NCBI GenBank assembly: GCA_020052375.1 | Contig: JAGVPG010000008.1 | Coordinates: forward strand, 1-46,460 | Length of the DNA stretch: 46,460 nt | Direction: 5' to 3' | Source of the DNA: Actinomycetota bacterium | Lineage (GTDB): Bacteria; Actinomycetota; JAHEXW01; JAGVPG01 | Shown: in pieces, positions 1-7,748 of the stretch | Position numbering within the stretch: position 1 is the stretch's first letter | Layout of the letters: each line of letters begins with the position of its first letter | Position numbers and translations under genes: made by a program | Notes under the pieces: generated by a model | Database searches by the model: none | What the model saw: the letters and a program-made list of their open reading frames with translations, nothing else | Told to the model about the DNA's origin: nothing

Positions 1-3000
1 ACTACTACTCGTGGGACAACGCGTACATGTCCAACTCTGAATCCGTCAAGAGCAAAGTGATCAAGGTGGACACGACTTCTCCCACCTGGAACACGGCCTG
101 GGCGATAAGGTTCGCTGAATTCGTGTTCACAGGACCAGGCGGAGAGATGAAGATCGGCTGGGACGGAGCATCCGATACGAACGGCGTGACATACAGGCTC
201 TATTACGCCCCGGACGGCTCCTTCAACTGGAACACATCTCCCTACATCCTCGTCTCACCGACGGACCCGGGCGTCACATATCCGGGAGTGAATGCCCAGT
301 ACGAATACGTGGTATCCGGACTCATCCCCTCGACGGACTACACCTTCGGCGTCCGTGTCCAGGACTTAAACGGAAACGCGACCACGAACACCCAGTCCTT
401 GAGCGGTTGTCCCACTTCAGCGATAGACACGGCACCACCCACCACCAACATATCTCTGAATCCAGCTACTCCCAACGGAGAAAACGGCTGGTACAGGACG
501 ACACCTTCGATTACCCTGACAAGGAGTGAGACCGGCACCACCTACTACTCATGGACTTCCACCTTCGGACCCTGGACTCCATACACAGACGGGGTGCCCG
601 TAAACGCCATCGAAGGCAACAATACCTTTTACTACTACTCGGAGGATGAGATAGGGAATCTAGAACAGGTGCAAAACCGGCAGATGGCGGTGGACACCGT
701 GAGTCCGATCGACCCGACTTTATCAAGCACGAGCCATACAATAGGAGAATGGTCAACCGATCGATTTATCGACATCTCAATATCAGGTGCGTCAGACGCG
801 GTCAGCGGTGTAGACGGATATTCTTATACATACAGTTATTACCCGATCACTATACCTGACGCGATAAAAGATTTTGAAGAGACGACGACATTAGATACGC
901 GCTTTGTGCAAGACGCACCGATATGGTACGTACACATGAGGACAAGGGACAACGCCGGCAACTGGACCTCCACTGTTCATCTGGGACCTTTCAAGATAGA
1001 CGGGACAAGTCCGCCCGCCTTCGATCTTTCAGCTCCAGCAAACAACGCCTGGGTGACCACTAGGGACGTACTGTTTTCCTGGGAAGCGTCTCCCGATCAG
1101 ACATCGGGACTCGAAAAGTATATGTTATACATAGACGGAGCATTCAACAAGGACGTCTCTCCGACGCTTACAAGTGCCACCGCCAGATTGTCCGAAGGCG
1201 TTCATACATGGTATATAGTCGCGAGAGACATAGTAGGGAACCCAAGAACATCGACCTCGACAAGGACCGTAAGGGTGGATTCATTTGCTCCGGTCACGTC
1301 ACGCACAGTCACGCCTTTGAATCCGACGGGGGATAACGGCTGGTACCTGGCGTACCCGACGATCAGTCTGTCCGCGACGGACAGCTCCGGAAGCGGTGTA
1401 GCAGATGTTCTCTATCACTGGGACTCTGACGGTGACCAGCCATACACAAGCGGGAATATACAATCCACCGAGGGAGACCACACACTCCACTACCACGCGA
1501 CGGATGTCGCGTCGAATTCCGAGTCCGATCAGACATTGCAGATCAAAGTGGATAAGACACTGCCCACAGATCCTGTCGTGTCAAGTCCAAGCCATACCGT
1601 TGGAACATGGTCGAATGACCGAATGATAGATATTTCGTTCCCGGGTGCCTCGGATTCGGTGAGCGGTTTAGACGGCTATTCGTTCGAGTGGAGTAATCAA
1701 CCGGGAACTATACCTGATGTCGAAAAAGACATTGAGGAAAACGTAACTGCTCTGTCAAAATGGCCTCTGTCGAACGGGACATGGTATTTTCATATGAAAG
1801 CCAAAGATAACGCCGGCAACTGGACAAACACCGTCCACTTAGGACCTTTCTATATCGATTCGCAGGCGCCGTTGACCGGCATATCCTTAAGTCCTAGCAG
1901 TGAAGACGGAGACAACGGCTGGTATAGAACGACTCCCGCGATCACCTTGACGAGGAATGAAAACGGCACTAGCTACTACTCATGGGTATCCTCATCAGGT
2001 CCCTGGACCCCCTACACGGACGGAGTGCCGGAAAACGCCATCGAAGGGAACAACAACCTGTACTTCTACTCGGAGGATCTAGCGGGGAACCTGGAACAGG
2101 CGAAAAGCAAGCAGATAGCGGTAGACTCGGTGAATCCGATCGATCCGAGCGTCTCGAGCCTGAGTCACGTCAGCGGCGCATGGTCCAACGATCCTACGGT
2201 CGATATCACGATATCAGGCGCGTCGGACGCGACCAGCGGACTAGACGGATATTCGATCGAGTGGAGCCTGCAAGCTGCGACGATACCCGATACACGCATA
2301 GAGCTTGAAGAAAACACAACGTCGACCACCAGTCCGCCTCTCATCGACGGTTCGTGGTATTTCCATCTAAGAACAAAAGATAACGCCGGTAACTGGGCAT
2401 CCACACAACATATCGGGCCGTTTGTCATCGACTCGACACCGCCTACGGTAGTGGCTGTGACACCTCTAGAGACGGCATCGAACGTGCCGTTGGGTACAAA
2501 CATGATCGCGACATTCGACGGTGAGATGGACACAGCGACCGTTAACAACACCACATTCACCGTTCAGAAGCAATCCTCCGGGCAATCCATCGCGGGAACG
2601 ATATCGATCAATCCGGCAGGCACGGTGGCCACCTTTGATCCGCAAAACGATCTTGAGACCGGCGAGGTTTACGATGTAGTCCTTACAACCGGTTTGAGTG
2701 ACGTAGCCGGCAACTATATGGCTGCCGCGAAGAGCTGGAGTTTCGCCACCCGGACAAACAGCGCGCCCGTCGCGGATCCCGGGGGCCCGTATACGGTAGA
2801 TTTGGGTACTTCTTTAGTGCTGGACGGCACCGGTTCTTATGATGCCGATATACTCGTTGGTGATACGATATCGAGTTATCAGTGGCGGATAGGAAGCAGT
2901 CTGACTCCGACCGGAGCGTCTCCCACTCTGTCAAGCGGCCAGATAAGCATCCTTGGACTAGGGGTTTACCAGGTCGAGCTCACGGTAACAGATAGTCTTG

Positions 3001-4103
3001 GACTGCAATCGGTTCCTGTGACCACCAACCTGAGTATTCAGGATCTTTCGGGTCCGTCGGTTCCGGTATTGTCAGGAGCGGCTCGTGACAGCTTCACAAT
3101 AGAACTCTACTGGAGTGCTTCAACAGATAACGTAGGAATCACAGGATATAGTGTTTATAACGCCGATACTGGTTCTTTGGTCGGGACTACGTCCGCTCTT
3201 ACGCTCCAAATCCCGGGATTATCACAGGGTACCACATACAGATACCTGGTGAGGGCCTCGGACGCCGCCGGCAATGAGTCGACTTCGAGCAATACGGTCA
3301 CGACGACAACGCCTTTACTGCAGGACTCGGTTGCGCCAACGGCGCCGAAACAGGTCTCGGCTCTGCCTTTGAGTTCTTCAGAGATAGAGCTTTCATGGAA
3401 TCCTTCGAACGATAATATCGGAGTCACAAGGTATGTTATCTTCGATGCTGACACGAATGTCGGCATCATCTCTGCTTCACAGAGCCCTTGGATTATTCAG
3501 AACCTTAGCGCGTCACGGACTTACAGATTCTACGTAAAGGCATACGACGCATCCAGTAATGAATCTGCCGCGAGCACTACAGTGAGCGCGACCACTTTTG
3601 CCGCTCCCGTCCAGACGAACATAGGCACAAATGTCCAGGTTATTCCCAGCACTGCCACAACACTGACATTCTCAAACATCACTTCGGCTGGAACGACATC
3701 AGTTACGTCAAGTTCGACGCCGAGCCAGGGTTCGCCGGACAACTTCCGTTTGCTCCAGGGAGGATATTACAATATCTCGACCACAAGCACTTATAACGGC
3801 CCGATCACCGTGACTCTGACCTATGATGACAGCCGGATGCAGGCGCCGAACCAGGAAAGCAGGCTTCGCATGTTCCATTGGGAGAACGGTAACTGGGTGG
3901 ACTGCACAGTATCATTAGATACGGTCAACAACGTAATCACCGGCCGTGTGACGTCCTTGTCGCCGTTCGGCATCGGCGAACCAGGCCCTGGCGGTACTGT
4001 GACAGGCGCTAATAGAAATATCTTGACGGTCTTAAGTGTATTTTCTATCCTGATCGGTCTGATGATGATCGGACTCACGAAACCTTTCAGGTTAGCTTCC
4101 TGA
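1..4103 (+). CDS. Large modular cell-surface protein, 5' end outside the window
   Basis: The frame is open from base 3 and the residues before the first ATG (base 27) match the end of an internal module, so the start lies upstream of the window. Numbering from that ATG there are 1358 residues. A fibronectin-like region (about 18-135) is followed by alternating Ig-like modules in the order X-Y-Z-X-Y-X-Y to about 800, a SbsA/Big_5-type Ig domain (about 805-911), a PKD-like domain (about 911-1005), two fibronectin III domains (about 1007-1192), and a beta domain (about 1192-1320) of a kind often seen near surface-protein C termini. The end is a hydrophobic span (about 1331-1350) and a basic tail (TKPFR), as in sorted wall proteins. 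GTVTG (1323-1327) precedes the span and may replace LPXTG. The next gene is a sortase. Likely an adhesin or envelope structural protein; its ligand is unknown. Confidence 0.85.
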   Translation, partial: YYSWDNAYMSNSESVKSKVIKVDTTSPTWNTAWAIRFAEFVFTGPGGEMKIGWDGASDTNGVTYRLYYAPDGSFNWNTSPYILVSPTDPGVTYPGVNAQYEYVVSGLIPSTDYTFGVRVQDLNGNATTNTQSLSGCPTSAIDTAPPTTNISLNPATPNGENGWYRTTPSITLTRSETGTTYYSWTSTFGPWTPYTDGVPVNAIEGNNTFYYYSEDEIGNLEQVQNRQMAVDTVSPIDPTLSSTSHTIGEWSTDRFIDISISGASDAVSGVDGYSYTYSYYPITIPDAIKDFEETTTLDTRFVQDAPIWYVHMRTRDNAGNWTSTVHLGPFKIDGTSPPAFDLSAPANNAWVTTRDVLFSWEASPDQTSGLEKYMLYIDGAFNKDVSPTLTSATARLSEGVHTWYIVARDIVGNPRTSTSTRTVRVDSFAPVTSRTVTPLNPTGDNGWYLAYPTISLSATDSSGSGVADVLYHWDSDGDQPYTSGNIQSTEGDHTLHYHATDVASNSESDQTLQIKVDKTLPTDPVVSSPSHTVGTWSNDRMIDISFPGASDSVSGLDGYSFEWSNQPGTIPDVEKDIEENVTALSKWPLSNGTWYFHMKAKDNAGNWTNTVHLGPFYIDSQAPLTGISLSPSSEDGDNGWYRTTPAITLTRNENGTSYYSWVSSSGPWTPYTDGVPENAIEGNNNLYFYSEDLAGNLEQAKSKQIAVDSVNPIDPSVSSLSHVSGAWSNDPTVDITISGASDATSGLDGYSIEWSLQAATIPDTRIELEENTTSTTSPPLIDGSWYFHLRTKDNAGNWASTQHIGPFVIDSTPPTVVAVTPLETASNVPLGTNMIATFDGEMDTATVNNTTFTVQKQSSGQSIAGTISINPAGTVATFDPQNDLETGEVYDVVLTTGLSDVAGNYMAAAKSWSFATRTNSAPVADPGGPYTVDLGTSLVLDGTGSYDADILVGDTISSYQWRIGSSLTPTGASPTLSSGQISILGLGVYQVELTVTDSLGLQSVPVTTNLSIQDLSGPSVPVLSGAARDSFTIELYWSASTDNVGITGYSVYNADTGSLVGTTSALTLQIPGLSQGTTYRYLVRASDAAGNESTSSNTVTTTTPLLQDSVAPTAPKQVSALPLSSSEIELSWNPSNDNIGVTRYVIFDADTNVGIISASQSPWIIQNLSASRTYRFYVKAYDASSNESAASTTVSATTFAAPVQTNIGTNVQVIPSTATTLTFSNITSAGTTSVTSSSTPSQGSPDNFRLLQGGYYNISTTSTYNGPITVTLTYDDSRMQAPNQESRLRMFHWENGNWVDCTVSLDTVNNVITGRVTSLSPFGIGEPGPGGTVTGANRNILTVLSVFSILIGLMMIGLTKPFRLAS
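449..2440 (+). repeat. Internal modular repeats in the surface protein gene
   Basis: Two kinds of module of roughly 85-100 codons alternate. Type X (near 449-705, 1305-1560 and 1872-2130) carries an NGWY start and, in two copies, PWTPYTDGVP and NAIEGNN. Type Y (near 706-1020, 1561-1860 and 2131-2440) carries SGASDA or PGASDS, SGxDGYS and RDNAGNW or KDNAGNW blocks. The first and third X copies are also close at the DNA level, which suggests recent duplication or ongoing homogenisation. Confidence 0.75.
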
Positions 4104-4115
4104 TAGAATTGTTTT

Positions 4116-4706
4116 ATGACTAATAAAAACCTACTGAAGACTTTACTCGATTCGCTTCTCTATCTGGTCGGTAGCTTTCTGGTCGTAGGCGGTTTACTAT
4201 TTCTATTATGGCTGGCCAGGCCATATATCATCCTGTTTGCGTTCTCCGGGCAGAAGGCGGCTCTTGAGAAGAAAGCGGAGCAGAAGAGCGTCGGCGGGAA
4301 CTATATAATCATCCCGTCTGTGCTGGTCGACGCGCCGATCCTCGAAGGGATGAATCCCAAACAGCTCTCGAAGGGGATAGTACGCGTGCAGAATACACCG
4401 CCGCCAGGCGGCAAAGGAAATTTCATCCTTGAAGGCCACAATCTGGCGGAGGTCGGTCTTATTAAACCGAACAACCTGTTCAGCTTGCTGGAAGTGATCG
4501 GTAACGGAAGCAGAGTCTATATTTACTGGCAGAACAAGCGATATGTATACGAGGTCACGGATAAGACCGTCAAGGACGTTCGCGACGGCAGTATCTACAA
4601 ACAGGCCAACAACGAGAGACTGACACTAGTCACATGTGTTTCGACCTGGTCGACGACAATTTACACCAACAACCGTACAATAGTTGTTTGCAGACCACTG
4701 TTTTAA
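4116..4706 (+). CDS. Sortase family transpeptidase
   Basis: A 196-residue membrane-anchored sortase that would cleave a C-terminal sorting signal and attach the protein to the wall. An N-terminal hydrophobic segment (about 10-45) is followed by the sortase barrel. The catalytic residues are visible: His108 in EGHN, Cys174 in the TLVTC motif and Arg187 in NNRT. Length and TLxTC are normal for sortases; the subclass (D or E) cannot be fixed by eye. It starts 12 bases after the stop of the surface protein, so it is probably a dedicated sortase for that protein. No strong Shine-Dalgarno precedes the ATG, which fits coupling to the upstream gene. The stop codon lies inside an 11-bp tandem duplication. 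Confidence 0.88.
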   Translation: MTNKNLLKTLLDSLLYLVGSFLVVGGLLFLLWLARPYIILFAFSGQKAALEKKAEQKSVGGNYIIIPSVLVDAPILEGMNPKQLSKGIVRVQNTPPPGGKGNFILEGHNLAEVGLIKPNNLFSLLEVIGNGSRVYIYWQNKRYVYEVTDKTVKDVRDGSIYKQANNERLTLVTCVSTWSTTIYTNNRTIVVCRPLF

Positions 4707-4725: not shown

Positions 4726-4748
4726 ATATGATTGGAGGATGATTGGTC

Positions 4749-7748
4749 GTGGCGTCGCTTTCTATGCTTAATGCATGCTTACCGGCTATCATCGCAATTG
4801 TAGCGCTCATCATCGCTATCATCTGGTCTAACCAGGAAAAAAGAAAACGGCACAGCGGCTCCGCTTCTTCTCTAGAATCAAACACAACGGAGATCTCCCA
4901 TATACAATATTTGCTGGACGCTCTCGATCAAGCGAAAGCCGCCGGTGAGATCGACAATGAGCCTTACGAGAATATCAAAAAGAAGTACATCGCGAGATGG
5001 CAAGAGCTGTATCAAGCTGTACAACCTTTGGAAGAACCAGCACAAGAGCCGTCAGAAGAACATATGGATAAGCTGGTAACACCCCAACCGGTAAGACCGG
5101 CACCCACACCCCGGGAGCCATTGACACTGGCCCGGATCACCCGCTGGCTTCTTTATCTCGGTGTCTTCCTCTTGTTCATAGCGACGGTGATCTTTGCCGT
5201 CTATAAATGGGAAAGCTTCCCCGAAGTCGTCAAGTTCATGATCCTGGTTGTCATAACTCTTTCTTTCTACGCCGGCGGGTGGTACGTCGCTGACCGCATC
5301 AGCCGGAAGGGCGGATTGGCTTTCGTTATTGTCGGTGCTATCATGACCGTCTTCGACGGATATATATACTTGAGCGCCAAGGACCTGCTGAATTCGGAGA
5401 TCAGCTGGGCGGCTGCCTTAGGTATCTGTGGCGTCGCGTATATCCTTATTGCTATAGCGACTCGATACAAGACCCTTACGTATCTATCGTGTGCAAGCCA
5501 GGCAGCGGCTATCTATCTGGTCGGGCTTCACTTCGAAACCGTTTTCAACCATAAGTACGAGACGCAGGTCTTTACCGCGACTCTAGCCGGCGCGGTCCTT
5601 CTTGCCCTGGCATGGTTGTTTATATCGCTGGCGCTCAAACGCAAGACGGAACTGTCGGACACCTTTAAGCGGCCCTTGATAAGCTCGTCGGACCTTTTAG
5701 CACCGTTGGCAATGATCTACTTTACCCCTCTGGTCATAAGTTACTTTATCAGAGACCAGCAGATCATAGGCGTGAGCGGCCTTCTGCTTAGCGTATGTTT
5801 CAGTACCTTGATTATTATTTACTATACGGTCCTATACCGGGCGAAAAGACAACCCGGATATATCTATCCGGTGTTTGTCGCGCAAGTCTTTATAGTTGCC
5901 AGCCTGCTGGCTTATATGAAGATCACGCGGTACGATCAGATATTCCTTGCTCTGGGGAGCCTGGCGCTTGTCTGGACGGCCACTGTTGGTTCTATGCGGA
6001 AATGGAAAGAAACTGAATTCTTAAAAGAGCCACTTATATATTCAGCGATCGGATTAGCCGGGCTTGTCAGCGCATTTTTAGCAGTCTACGTGGCCGCTTT
6101 TTCAATCGATAGCGGATCACTCCGGCCGGTAGCGACATTCAGTCTGGTGGCGGTTTTGTTTGTACTTGCGGTCGTCTATGTAGCGATCGCCTTTATGGAA
6201 CAAACAAGCTTCGTTTTTTATCCGGGACTCGTCTTAGTCACCGGTTCTTTAGCATACTTTCTGATCAGAGTCGGAGTCGATAACGATTATCTGCCTCTGG
6301 CGGTGGTTCTGTTGAGCCTGGTGTTTCTTGTATGTGCTGGTCCGGTTGCAGGAATCGAACGGTTCAAGCTGGCCGCAACACCATTGAGGATCTATAGTTA
6401 TATCCTGTCGAGTGTTATTGCTGTACCGTTTGCATTTGTCGCGTTGAACGCTACCCTAGGCGGCGACTGGGTTTACGTGATGCGGAACTCGACTATACTG
6501 GCGTACGTCTCGCTGGTCGCTTTTTATCTGACGGCGCTGTTTCTTAGGCGCCGGGACTTACTGCTCTATCCGGCGATACTATTTACTACTTATCTCATCC
6601 AGATCCTGGCGCACAAAGCAGGTATTGGCGAGGATCTCGCTGCGCTACCCGTTATCCTGCTGGCTGCGATCAGCCTCACCGGCTTCTTGATGGGCAGGAT
6701 ATTTGACGTCAAAGAGGTGAAAAGACCGGCCTTGGCCGGAGTCTACGGCTTGTCCGCCTATGCGTTTATTCTAAGCGCTCCTTCTCAACCGGTTCAGATG
6801 ACAGTACTCCTGCTAAGCGCTGCTTACTTCCTGGTCCTCGCTTTTATGCTTGTCGGTCCTTCCGTAAATGTCTGGCTTGGATTGTCGGCGGCCGCATTAG
6901 CAGTATTTATCGGCCTGGACTACGAAGGCATCACTCATCTTCTGGCAAACGTCTCATTCATAGCGTTCTACATGGCGATATTCTCGATATCGCTGGCTCT
7001 CAAGCAGACAGGGCTTACTAAAATACAGTCGATTGGCAGGCAGTTTTTTAGCTTCTCTGTCTTATATTGCCTGATCGTTCTTGCTTTACAGGCATTCGCG
7101 GCGACAGCCGGCGTCTTCCCTTTCTGGATGTACGCGCCGGCAAACGGCGCCAACGTGATGATGGTCGCCTTCGCTGTCGGCGGATTCTTCTATATTACGG
7201 CAGCCTACATCTACGAAAAAGAAACACTACTCTATGCCGGATTCCTGTTTTTCCTGATCGCGTATTTAATAAAGTTATCCGATCTGGAGGTCGCATTCAT
7301 CGAATGGTACTCGGTACCGATAGGCGCATATCTGATAACTATGGGTTATATGTTTAAAGCTAAACATCAAGAATACGAAGTCACGTCTCTTTCAAACACG
7401 CTAGGTTCCTTGATCATATTGGGAGCTCCGACACTCGCTTACATGACGATAGTCAAGGCACCGGATGTGCAGATACATGCCTTGATCGCGGCAGTATTCG
7501 CTGTGATCGCTCTCGCCGCCGGGTTGATGGCGCGAAACAAAGTCTTTTTCTTTAGTGGCATACTCTTTCTAGCCTGGAACGCGGTCTATCAGAGCTGGGA
7601 GTACGTATATGCGCTGCCCAAATGGATCACGATAGGTCTTCTAGGTCTCATCTTGATCACGTCCGGGATCTATCTCGAACGACGCCGCGAACAGTTTACG
7701 CAGATGCTCCGCGACATCAAAGACAGAATGATCAGTGAATGGAGCTGA
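4749..7748 (+). CDS. Giant polytopic membrane protein, SCO7613/DUF2157-like
   Basis: About 1000 residues. An N-terminal hydrophobic segment is followed by a soluble charged region (about residues 30-120) with a short helical HIQYLLDAL...EIDNEPYENIK stretch resembling a SHOCT/coiled adaptor. After about residue 130 there are more than twenty closely spaced hydrophobic segments, beginning with RWLLYLGVFLLF. This resembles large actinobacterial membrane proteins annotated as SCO7613 C-terminal-domain or DUF2157/DUF2339-like, whose function is not known; the assignment is from memory of their look. GGAGG at 4734-4738 serves either TTG 4743 (4-base gap) or the in-frame GTG 4749 (10-base gap); the GTG is preferred. 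It stands alone, with no neighbour of clearly related role. Confidence 0.75.
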   Translation: MASLSMLNACLPAIIAIVALIIAIIWSNQEKRKRHSGSASSLESNTTEISHIQYLLDALDQAKAAGEIDNEPYENIKKKYIARWQELYQAVQPLEEPAQEPSEEHMDKLVTPQPVRPAPTPREPLTLARITRWLLYLGVFLLFIATVIFAVYKWESFPEVVKFMILVVITLSFYAGGWYVADRISRKGGLAFVIVGAIMTVFDGYIYLSAKDLLNSEISWAAALGICGVAYILIAIATRYKTLTYLSCASQAAAIYLVGLHFETVFNHKYETQVFTATLAGAVLLALAWLFISLALKRKTELSDTFKRPLISSSDLLAPLAMIYFTPLVISYFIRDQQIIGVSGLLLSVCFSTLIIIYYTVLYRAKRQPGYIYPVFVAQVFIVASLLAYMKITRYDQIFLALGSLALVWTATVGSMRKWKETEFLKEPLIYSAIGLAGLVSAFLAVYVAAFSIDSGSLRPVATFSLVAVLFVLAVVYVAIAFMEQTSFVFYPGLVLVTGSLAYFLIRVGVDNDYLPLAVVLLSLVFLVCAGPVAGIERFKLAATPLRIYSYILSSVIAVPFAFVALNATLGGDWVYVMRNSTILAYVSLVAFYLTALFLRRRDLLLYPAILFTTYLIQILAHKAGIGEDLAALPVILLAAISLTGFLMGRIFDVKEVKRPALAGVYGLSAYAFILSAPSQPVQMTVLLLSAAYFLVLAFMLVGPSVNVWLGLSAAALAVFIGLDYEGITHLLANVSFIAFYMAIFSISLALKQTGLTKIQSIGRQFFSFSVLYCLIVLALQAFAATAGVFPFWMYAPANGANVMMVAFAVGGFFYITAAYIYEKETLLYAGFLFFLIAYLIKLSDLEVAFIEWYSVPIGAYLITMGYMFKAKHQEYEVTSLSNTLGSLIILGAPTLAYMTIVKAPDVQIHALIAAVFAVIALAAGLMARNKVFFFSGILFLAWNAVYQSWEYVYALPKWITIGLLGLILITSGIYLERRREQFTQMLRDIKDRMISEWS

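Follow-up and report, generated by a model that had tools for sequence, protein, structure and literature searches.

ORF 4116-4706 of the window (the whole 46,460-nucleotide stretch of DNA analysed, which is contig 10 of a host genome of 1.64 Mb in 35 contigs) probably encodes a member of a distinct sortase subfamily that would read a GxN-type C-terminal signal, its host substrates being the surface protein encoded just upstream and at least three others. The proposal is built on sequence comparison. Across the genomes of the phylum, GxN tails are nearly confined to those that also encode this sortase subfamily. An earlier note on this DNA had suggested a signal other than LPXTG paired with a matching sortase, an idea that held up since the signal recurs in the host and in other families and tracks the sortase clade.

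A surface protein without LPXTG lies next to a sortase gene

The ORF preceding the sortase (Table 1) lacks its 5' end because it is open towards the edge of the window, and its C-terminus reads ...SLSPFGIGEPGPGGTVTGANRNILTVLSVFSILIGLMMIGLTKPFRLAS. As the earlier note described, the protein ends with GGTVTGANRN, a hydrophobic span and a basic tail, neither LPXTG nor LAXTG being found before the span, where GTVTG stands in their place; the sortase ATG likewise begins 12 bases past the stop codon of the surface protein gene, as had been stated. In its C-terminal layout of motif, span and basic tail this protein resembles a canonical signal, its N terminus is beyond the contig edge, and the three other candidate substrates in the host have a signal-peptide-like N-terminal start. 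The tail gave no match to the Pfam and NCBIfam anchor models. The stalk domain that precedes it is common to GxN-tailed proteins of other families. Examination of the GTNACNGG DNA pattern was uninformative.

Another host contig, C3, breaks off within the gene of an OmpL47-type protein that has a signal peptide (C3:78182-78946, + strand) and is 72% identical to the window protein over 95 residues. It may be the missing start of the window protein or a paralogue; an exact overlap joining C3 to the start of the window was sought and none was found.

Table 1 Features of the surface protein and sortase genes in the window
Feature	Position	Strand	Basis
Candidate substrate surface protein, 5' end missing	27..4103	+	OmpL47-type/Big/PKD/fn3 repeats
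Conserved C-terminal stalk domain (...HWENGNWVDCT...SLSPFGIG)	3640..3989	+	Ten proteins from other genomes, 36-53% identical
GTVTG	3993-4007	+	Sequence
Candidate sorting motif TGANRN	4002..4019	+	Sequence and conservation
Hydrophobic span	4020-4076	+	Sequence
C-terminal hydrophobic span and basic tail	4020..4103	+	Stop codon 4101-4103
Sortase, unclassified subfamily, N-terminal membrane helix	4116..4706	+	Pfam, class models, tree
Catalytic His108	4437-4439	+	GHN; aligned with relatives and solved sortases
Catalytic Cys174	4635-4637	+	TLVTC (TLxTC); aligned with relatives and solved sortases
Catalytic Arg187	4674-4676	+	Aligned with relatives and solved sortases

The window sortase falls in a clade whose closest relatives are classes C and D

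The product of the sortase gene matched the Pfam Sortase family PF04203 (3.6e-22; 78.9 bits versus a cut-off of 26.6) and scored above the cut-off of TIGR01076 (46.9 versus 39.35 bits), with His108, Cys174 and Arg187 at the expected positions. All the class-specific models scored below their cut-offs: class D (56.1 bits, cut-off 165), the LPxTATN-specific model (54.8, 140), class C (50.8, 160), class E (40.1, 160), class GN (34.8, 158) and class F (26.4, 166), the best class models, D and C, both being far under them. The nearest solved structure was PDB 2kw8, which we take to be the B. anthracis class D sortase. Single-sequence structure prediction was poor (pLDDT 53), only the N-terminal helix being well predicted. 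An initial contig scan with the window sortase as query found no relative. The phylogenetic tree placed the window sortase in one group with those of genomes G244, G266, G223, G276, G159, G368 and G376 (support 97/89), which was joined to the group of family f18 at 100/96, apart from the class E-like enzymes and those resembling a second host sortase on contig C22. On sequence grounds, the window sortase and its relatives can be regarded as one supported clade whose nearest classes are C and D.

Downstream, at a distance of 36 bases from the sortase, begins a gene for a large DUF2157/SCO7613-type membrane protein (4743-7748) that may be on the same transcript. This neighbour and the class E/LAXTG content of the host tentatively suggest Actinomycetota as its phylum.

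The host genome encodes further GxN tails and several sorting systems

All host contigs were read in stretches, and proteins with a C-terminal span followed by a basic tail were listed. Two contigs other than the window encode three more secreted proteins in which TG-x-N-[KR]-[NY] stands directly ahead of the span: C23:13968-15578 (NLSTGYNKY), C33:4311-5408 (AVSTGVNKN) and C33:5449-6546 (NYSTGVNKN). The earlier note had advised looking for other tails in VTG; the search did add these three proteins, but VTG itself is not shared, as they read STG. With at least three more candidate substrates on other contigs, the self-contained pair that the note had considered is not supported either. The pattern TG.N[KR] was found at the span boundary of 4 of the 104 C-terminal-span proteins, versus 0.057 expected from its proteome frequency (Poisson p 4e-7; p 2e-9 among the 28 single-span proteins), p values that are optimistic because the pattern was first read off the same tails, which makes the count descriptive. 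Independent support for the signal comes from the phylum-wide result given below.

The host encodes three sortases. Besides the window enzyme, there is one in the class E-like clade (C5:32747-33388), which faces a small LAYTG protein (C5:33483-33947), and another (C22:31297-31911) related to the sole sortase of G001, a genome of the same order. LPYTG proteins are found in contigs C6, C15, C25 and C31, and LAYTG in C5; the short LPYTG and LAYTG tails are devoid of the GxN part, the GxN tails are devoid of LP or LA, and no LPXTA was seen in the candidate host tails. Because of the two other sortases and these LPYTG and LAYTG proteins, the window sortase is to be considered one of several host systems.

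Some of these tails have peculiarities of their own. The LPYTG of C6:122533-123906 and C15:1-1833 does not adjoin the C-terminal span but lies about 14 to 27 residues upstream of it, and in the former it is followed by IETTGKDNRTW, with TTGKDNR at the span. Two differing secreted propeller-like proteins of C25 (L061:8062-9225, - strand) and C31 (L067:7284-8528, + strand) terminate at ELPYTGK and ELPYTGR, respectively, without a membrane span, and none of the frames just downstream obviously supplies one. On contig C7 (L378:5-2094), an XrtG-like exosortase gene overlaps the end of a secreted-protein gene with the tail NIPTLGITLTVIAV...RRR, the two forming a candidate for a further C-terminal sorting pair in the host.

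The signal is conserved in other genomes on the downstream side

Applied to 397 genomes of the phylum, a tail profile trained solely on the four host tails retrieved true terminal tails in G266 (FVPTGVNKY), G276 (TSTGYNEN), G159 (APATGLNTN), G296 (LPSTGTNTW) and G060 (IAFGHNTN); most of the weak matches were ordinary membrane spans and were discarded. The consensus of the homologous tails elsewhere in the phylum was [T/F/Y]-G-x-N-[T/K]-[N/Y]. Among 23 tails, in which Gly was fixed by the choice of tails, the preceding residue was Thr in 13, Phe in 7 and Tyr in 3, and, counted from the assumed cut, the third position was occupied by Asn in 21, followed by Thr (16) or Lys (4) at the fourth position and Asn (15) or Tyr (6) at the fifth. 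Residues upstream of Thr-Gly were unconstrained, with no preference for Leu-Pro. Phe or Tyr ahead of Gly was confined to family f18; we know of no sortase that accepts either residue there. GTVTG as such, put forward in the earlier note as the motif, does not describe what is conserved, namely Gly, any residue, Asn, T/K/R and N/Y in this order; the Thr-Gly pair it emphasized is kept in the host tails but can be lost, through replacement of Thr by Phe or Tyr, in proteins homologous to the window protein.

Its C-terminal region was 36-53% identical to such surface proteins of G137, G034, G060, G020, G233, G368 and G360, and wherever the stalk could be aligned the tail retained G-x-N-[TR]-[NY], with GVKAN as the variant of G368, despite differing residues ahead of Gly. 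Ordinary LPYTG and LAYTG proteins, whose presence the earlier note had listed against its own claim, do exist in the host; the claim as amended here survives because these homologues retain the signal in one form or another. A scan with the propeller of the C33 proteins, which yielded 75 loci from many phyla, was unhelpful because the propeller is generic and the tails encoded at these loci lack the motif.

Proximity of sortase and substrate genes was also observed in G137, where only 9 bp separate the gene of a 2095-aa surface protein, whose end reads TGYGLNTNLV, from that of a relative of the window sortase downstream, so that a second adjacent sortase/GxN-substrate pair exists in the distant family f18. 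An adjacent substrate was absent in most genomes with a readable sortase neighbourhood.

GxN tails and window-type sortases co-occur

Genomes were scored as sortase-positive when the match was full-length with an E value of about 1e-22 or better, or was cut by a contig end. Of the 397 genomes, 13 had GxN tails, 16 a window-type sortase and 11 had both (Fisher p about 4e-16; 8e-15 without the host genome), with a correspondence by family of 6 out of 7 each way; counting only the tails found with the host-trained profile, 4 of the 5 tail genomes had a sortase relative (Fisher 6.6e-6), all these p values being overstated because the genomes are related. The 13 tail genomes came from a widened tail profile, which had been trained on many of the genomes later counted. 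The sortases of G266, G276 and G159 were inspected only after their tails had been found; that of G266 is a close orthologue, sharing 47% identity and the signature IIPSVLVDAPI, TCVSTWSxTIYTxxRT with the window enzyme, and that of G276 a close orthologue with 41% identity. Tails without the sortase were those of G296 (87% complete, no sortase found) and G370 (an ordinary LAATG tail), and the sortase without a detected tail occurred in G223, G376, G083, G169 and G244. The set included just two further members of the host's class, G001 and G002, and neither tail nor window-type sortase was detected in them.

Some members of the sortase clade are altered. In G244 the relative (L326:442-954) is disrupted by stops or a frameshift near the contig start. 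Cysteine-free sortases were seen in families f49 and f68, in G276 (L214), G368 (L324:3228-3887) and G376 (L325:319-978), TLxTC having changed to TLxAS, with Ser for Cys, and the His (GHN) and Arg having been retained; G276 and G368 keep GxN tails despite this.

Discussion

According to the mechanism that we propose, the window sortase would act as a membrane-anchored cysteine transpeptidase recognizing [T/F/Y]-G-x-N-[T/K/R]-[N/Y] right before the span, instead of an LPXT upstream of the cut. The substrate, once exported, would be held by its C-terminal span, Cys174 would attack the bond before the conserved Gly (Thr-Gly in the window protein), as sortases do, and the exposed end would presumably be joined to an amine of the cell envelope. 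In the host, the enzyme would process the window protein and the C23 and two C33 proteins described above, the LPYTG and LAYTG proteins being handled by the C22 and C5 sortases. Counting against this proposal are the genomes with only the tail or only the sortase, the Phe or Tyr ahead of Gly in f18 and the cysteine-free sortases. A further-reaching version, which we regard as possible but rather doubtful, is that the enzyme now recognizes the primed side of the cut (G-x-N-T-N) in place of the LPXT side, freeing the pre-cut residue to become Phe or Tyr, and that in one sub-lineage the catalytic Cys is naturally Ser with the substrates kept.

The GxN tails could instead be degenerate LPXTG signals processed by the general C22 or C5 sortase, the neighbouring enzyme being incidental or broad. 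A continuum of tails (LPATGLNTV, LPSTGTNTW, VPPTGVNTS, IPTGYNTY) would fit such decay, and one C33 tail exceeds the LPXTG_anchor cut-off (21.1 versus 15.9 bits). We nevertheless consider this unlikely, as decay would not be expected to preserve the downstream Asn, T/K and N/Y, the tails follow the window clade and not the widespread class E-like sortases, and no GxN tail was detected in G001, whose sole sortase is of the C22 type. Still less probable is that an exosortase, a rhombosortase or a similar C-terminal sorting enzyme processes the tails: the host does encode an XrtG-like exosortase, but this overlaps its own candidate substrate gene, the tail of which differs from the GxN form, and 8 of the 10 sortase/tail genomes searched gave no exosortase match, so that an exosortase was rejected as the general enzyme for GxN tails. 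Equally improbable, in our opinion, is a plain uncleaved membrane anchor whose motif reflects chance or common descent of the tails. A span with basic residues does end many bacterial surface proteins, but the tails co-occur with the sortase, the motif is common to unrelated proteins (OmpL47-type stalk, TolB-like propeller and C39-protease-like), and TGxNKYML is found in both the G266 protein and the C23 protein of the host. We therefore favour a dedicated sortase subfamily that would read the GxN signal.

Sortase specificity is thought to depend on a PXT-like core ahead of the cut (PMC5148588). If our proposal is true, a subfamily keeping only Gly and the downstream Asn in its substrates would represent a new specificity, possibly a ligase orthogonal to the sortases used for protein labelling, and would add surface proteins missed by LPXTG searches in poorly known lineages. 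No paper describing a GxN signal was found in the open-access literature. Among the known signals, LPXTG and QVPTGV, the latter a boutique sorting signal, resemble the window tail in being tripartite with Thr-Gly ahead of the span, as is also apparent in the G266 tail FVPTGVNKY, but they differ from it in that the conserved part of the GxN tails lies downstream of Thr-Gly and that Thr is replaced by Phe or Tyr in one lineage.

Class D sortases (LPXTA/LPXTATN; Bacillus; PMC3617157; NF033746, NF058671) are those whose models, together with 2kw8, gave the window sortase its best scores, although its relatives score equally high against class C. In class D signals, LPXTA is followed by two conserved residues to give LPXTATN, and the sortase genes of this class are frequently neighbours of their substrate genes (PMC3617157). 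Asn is the third residue after the cut in TATN and after the assumed cut in the TGxN described here, often followed by an aromatic residue, but GxN tails lack LP and have Gly, not Ala, after the cut, and we take the likeness as a working resemblance rather than class D membership. With class E/LAXTG enzymes (Streptomyces SrtE1; PMC5148588) the window sortase shares fold, catalytic residues and coexistence with other sortases, but it belongs to another clade and its substrate lacks LA. Finally, the PEP-CTERM/exosortase and GlyGly-CTERM/rhombosortase systems (PMC1569441, PMC3237569) follow the same logic, in that co-occurrence links one enzyme to unrelated proteins bearing a short signal at the C terminus; the enzyme in the window is a true sortase (PF04203).
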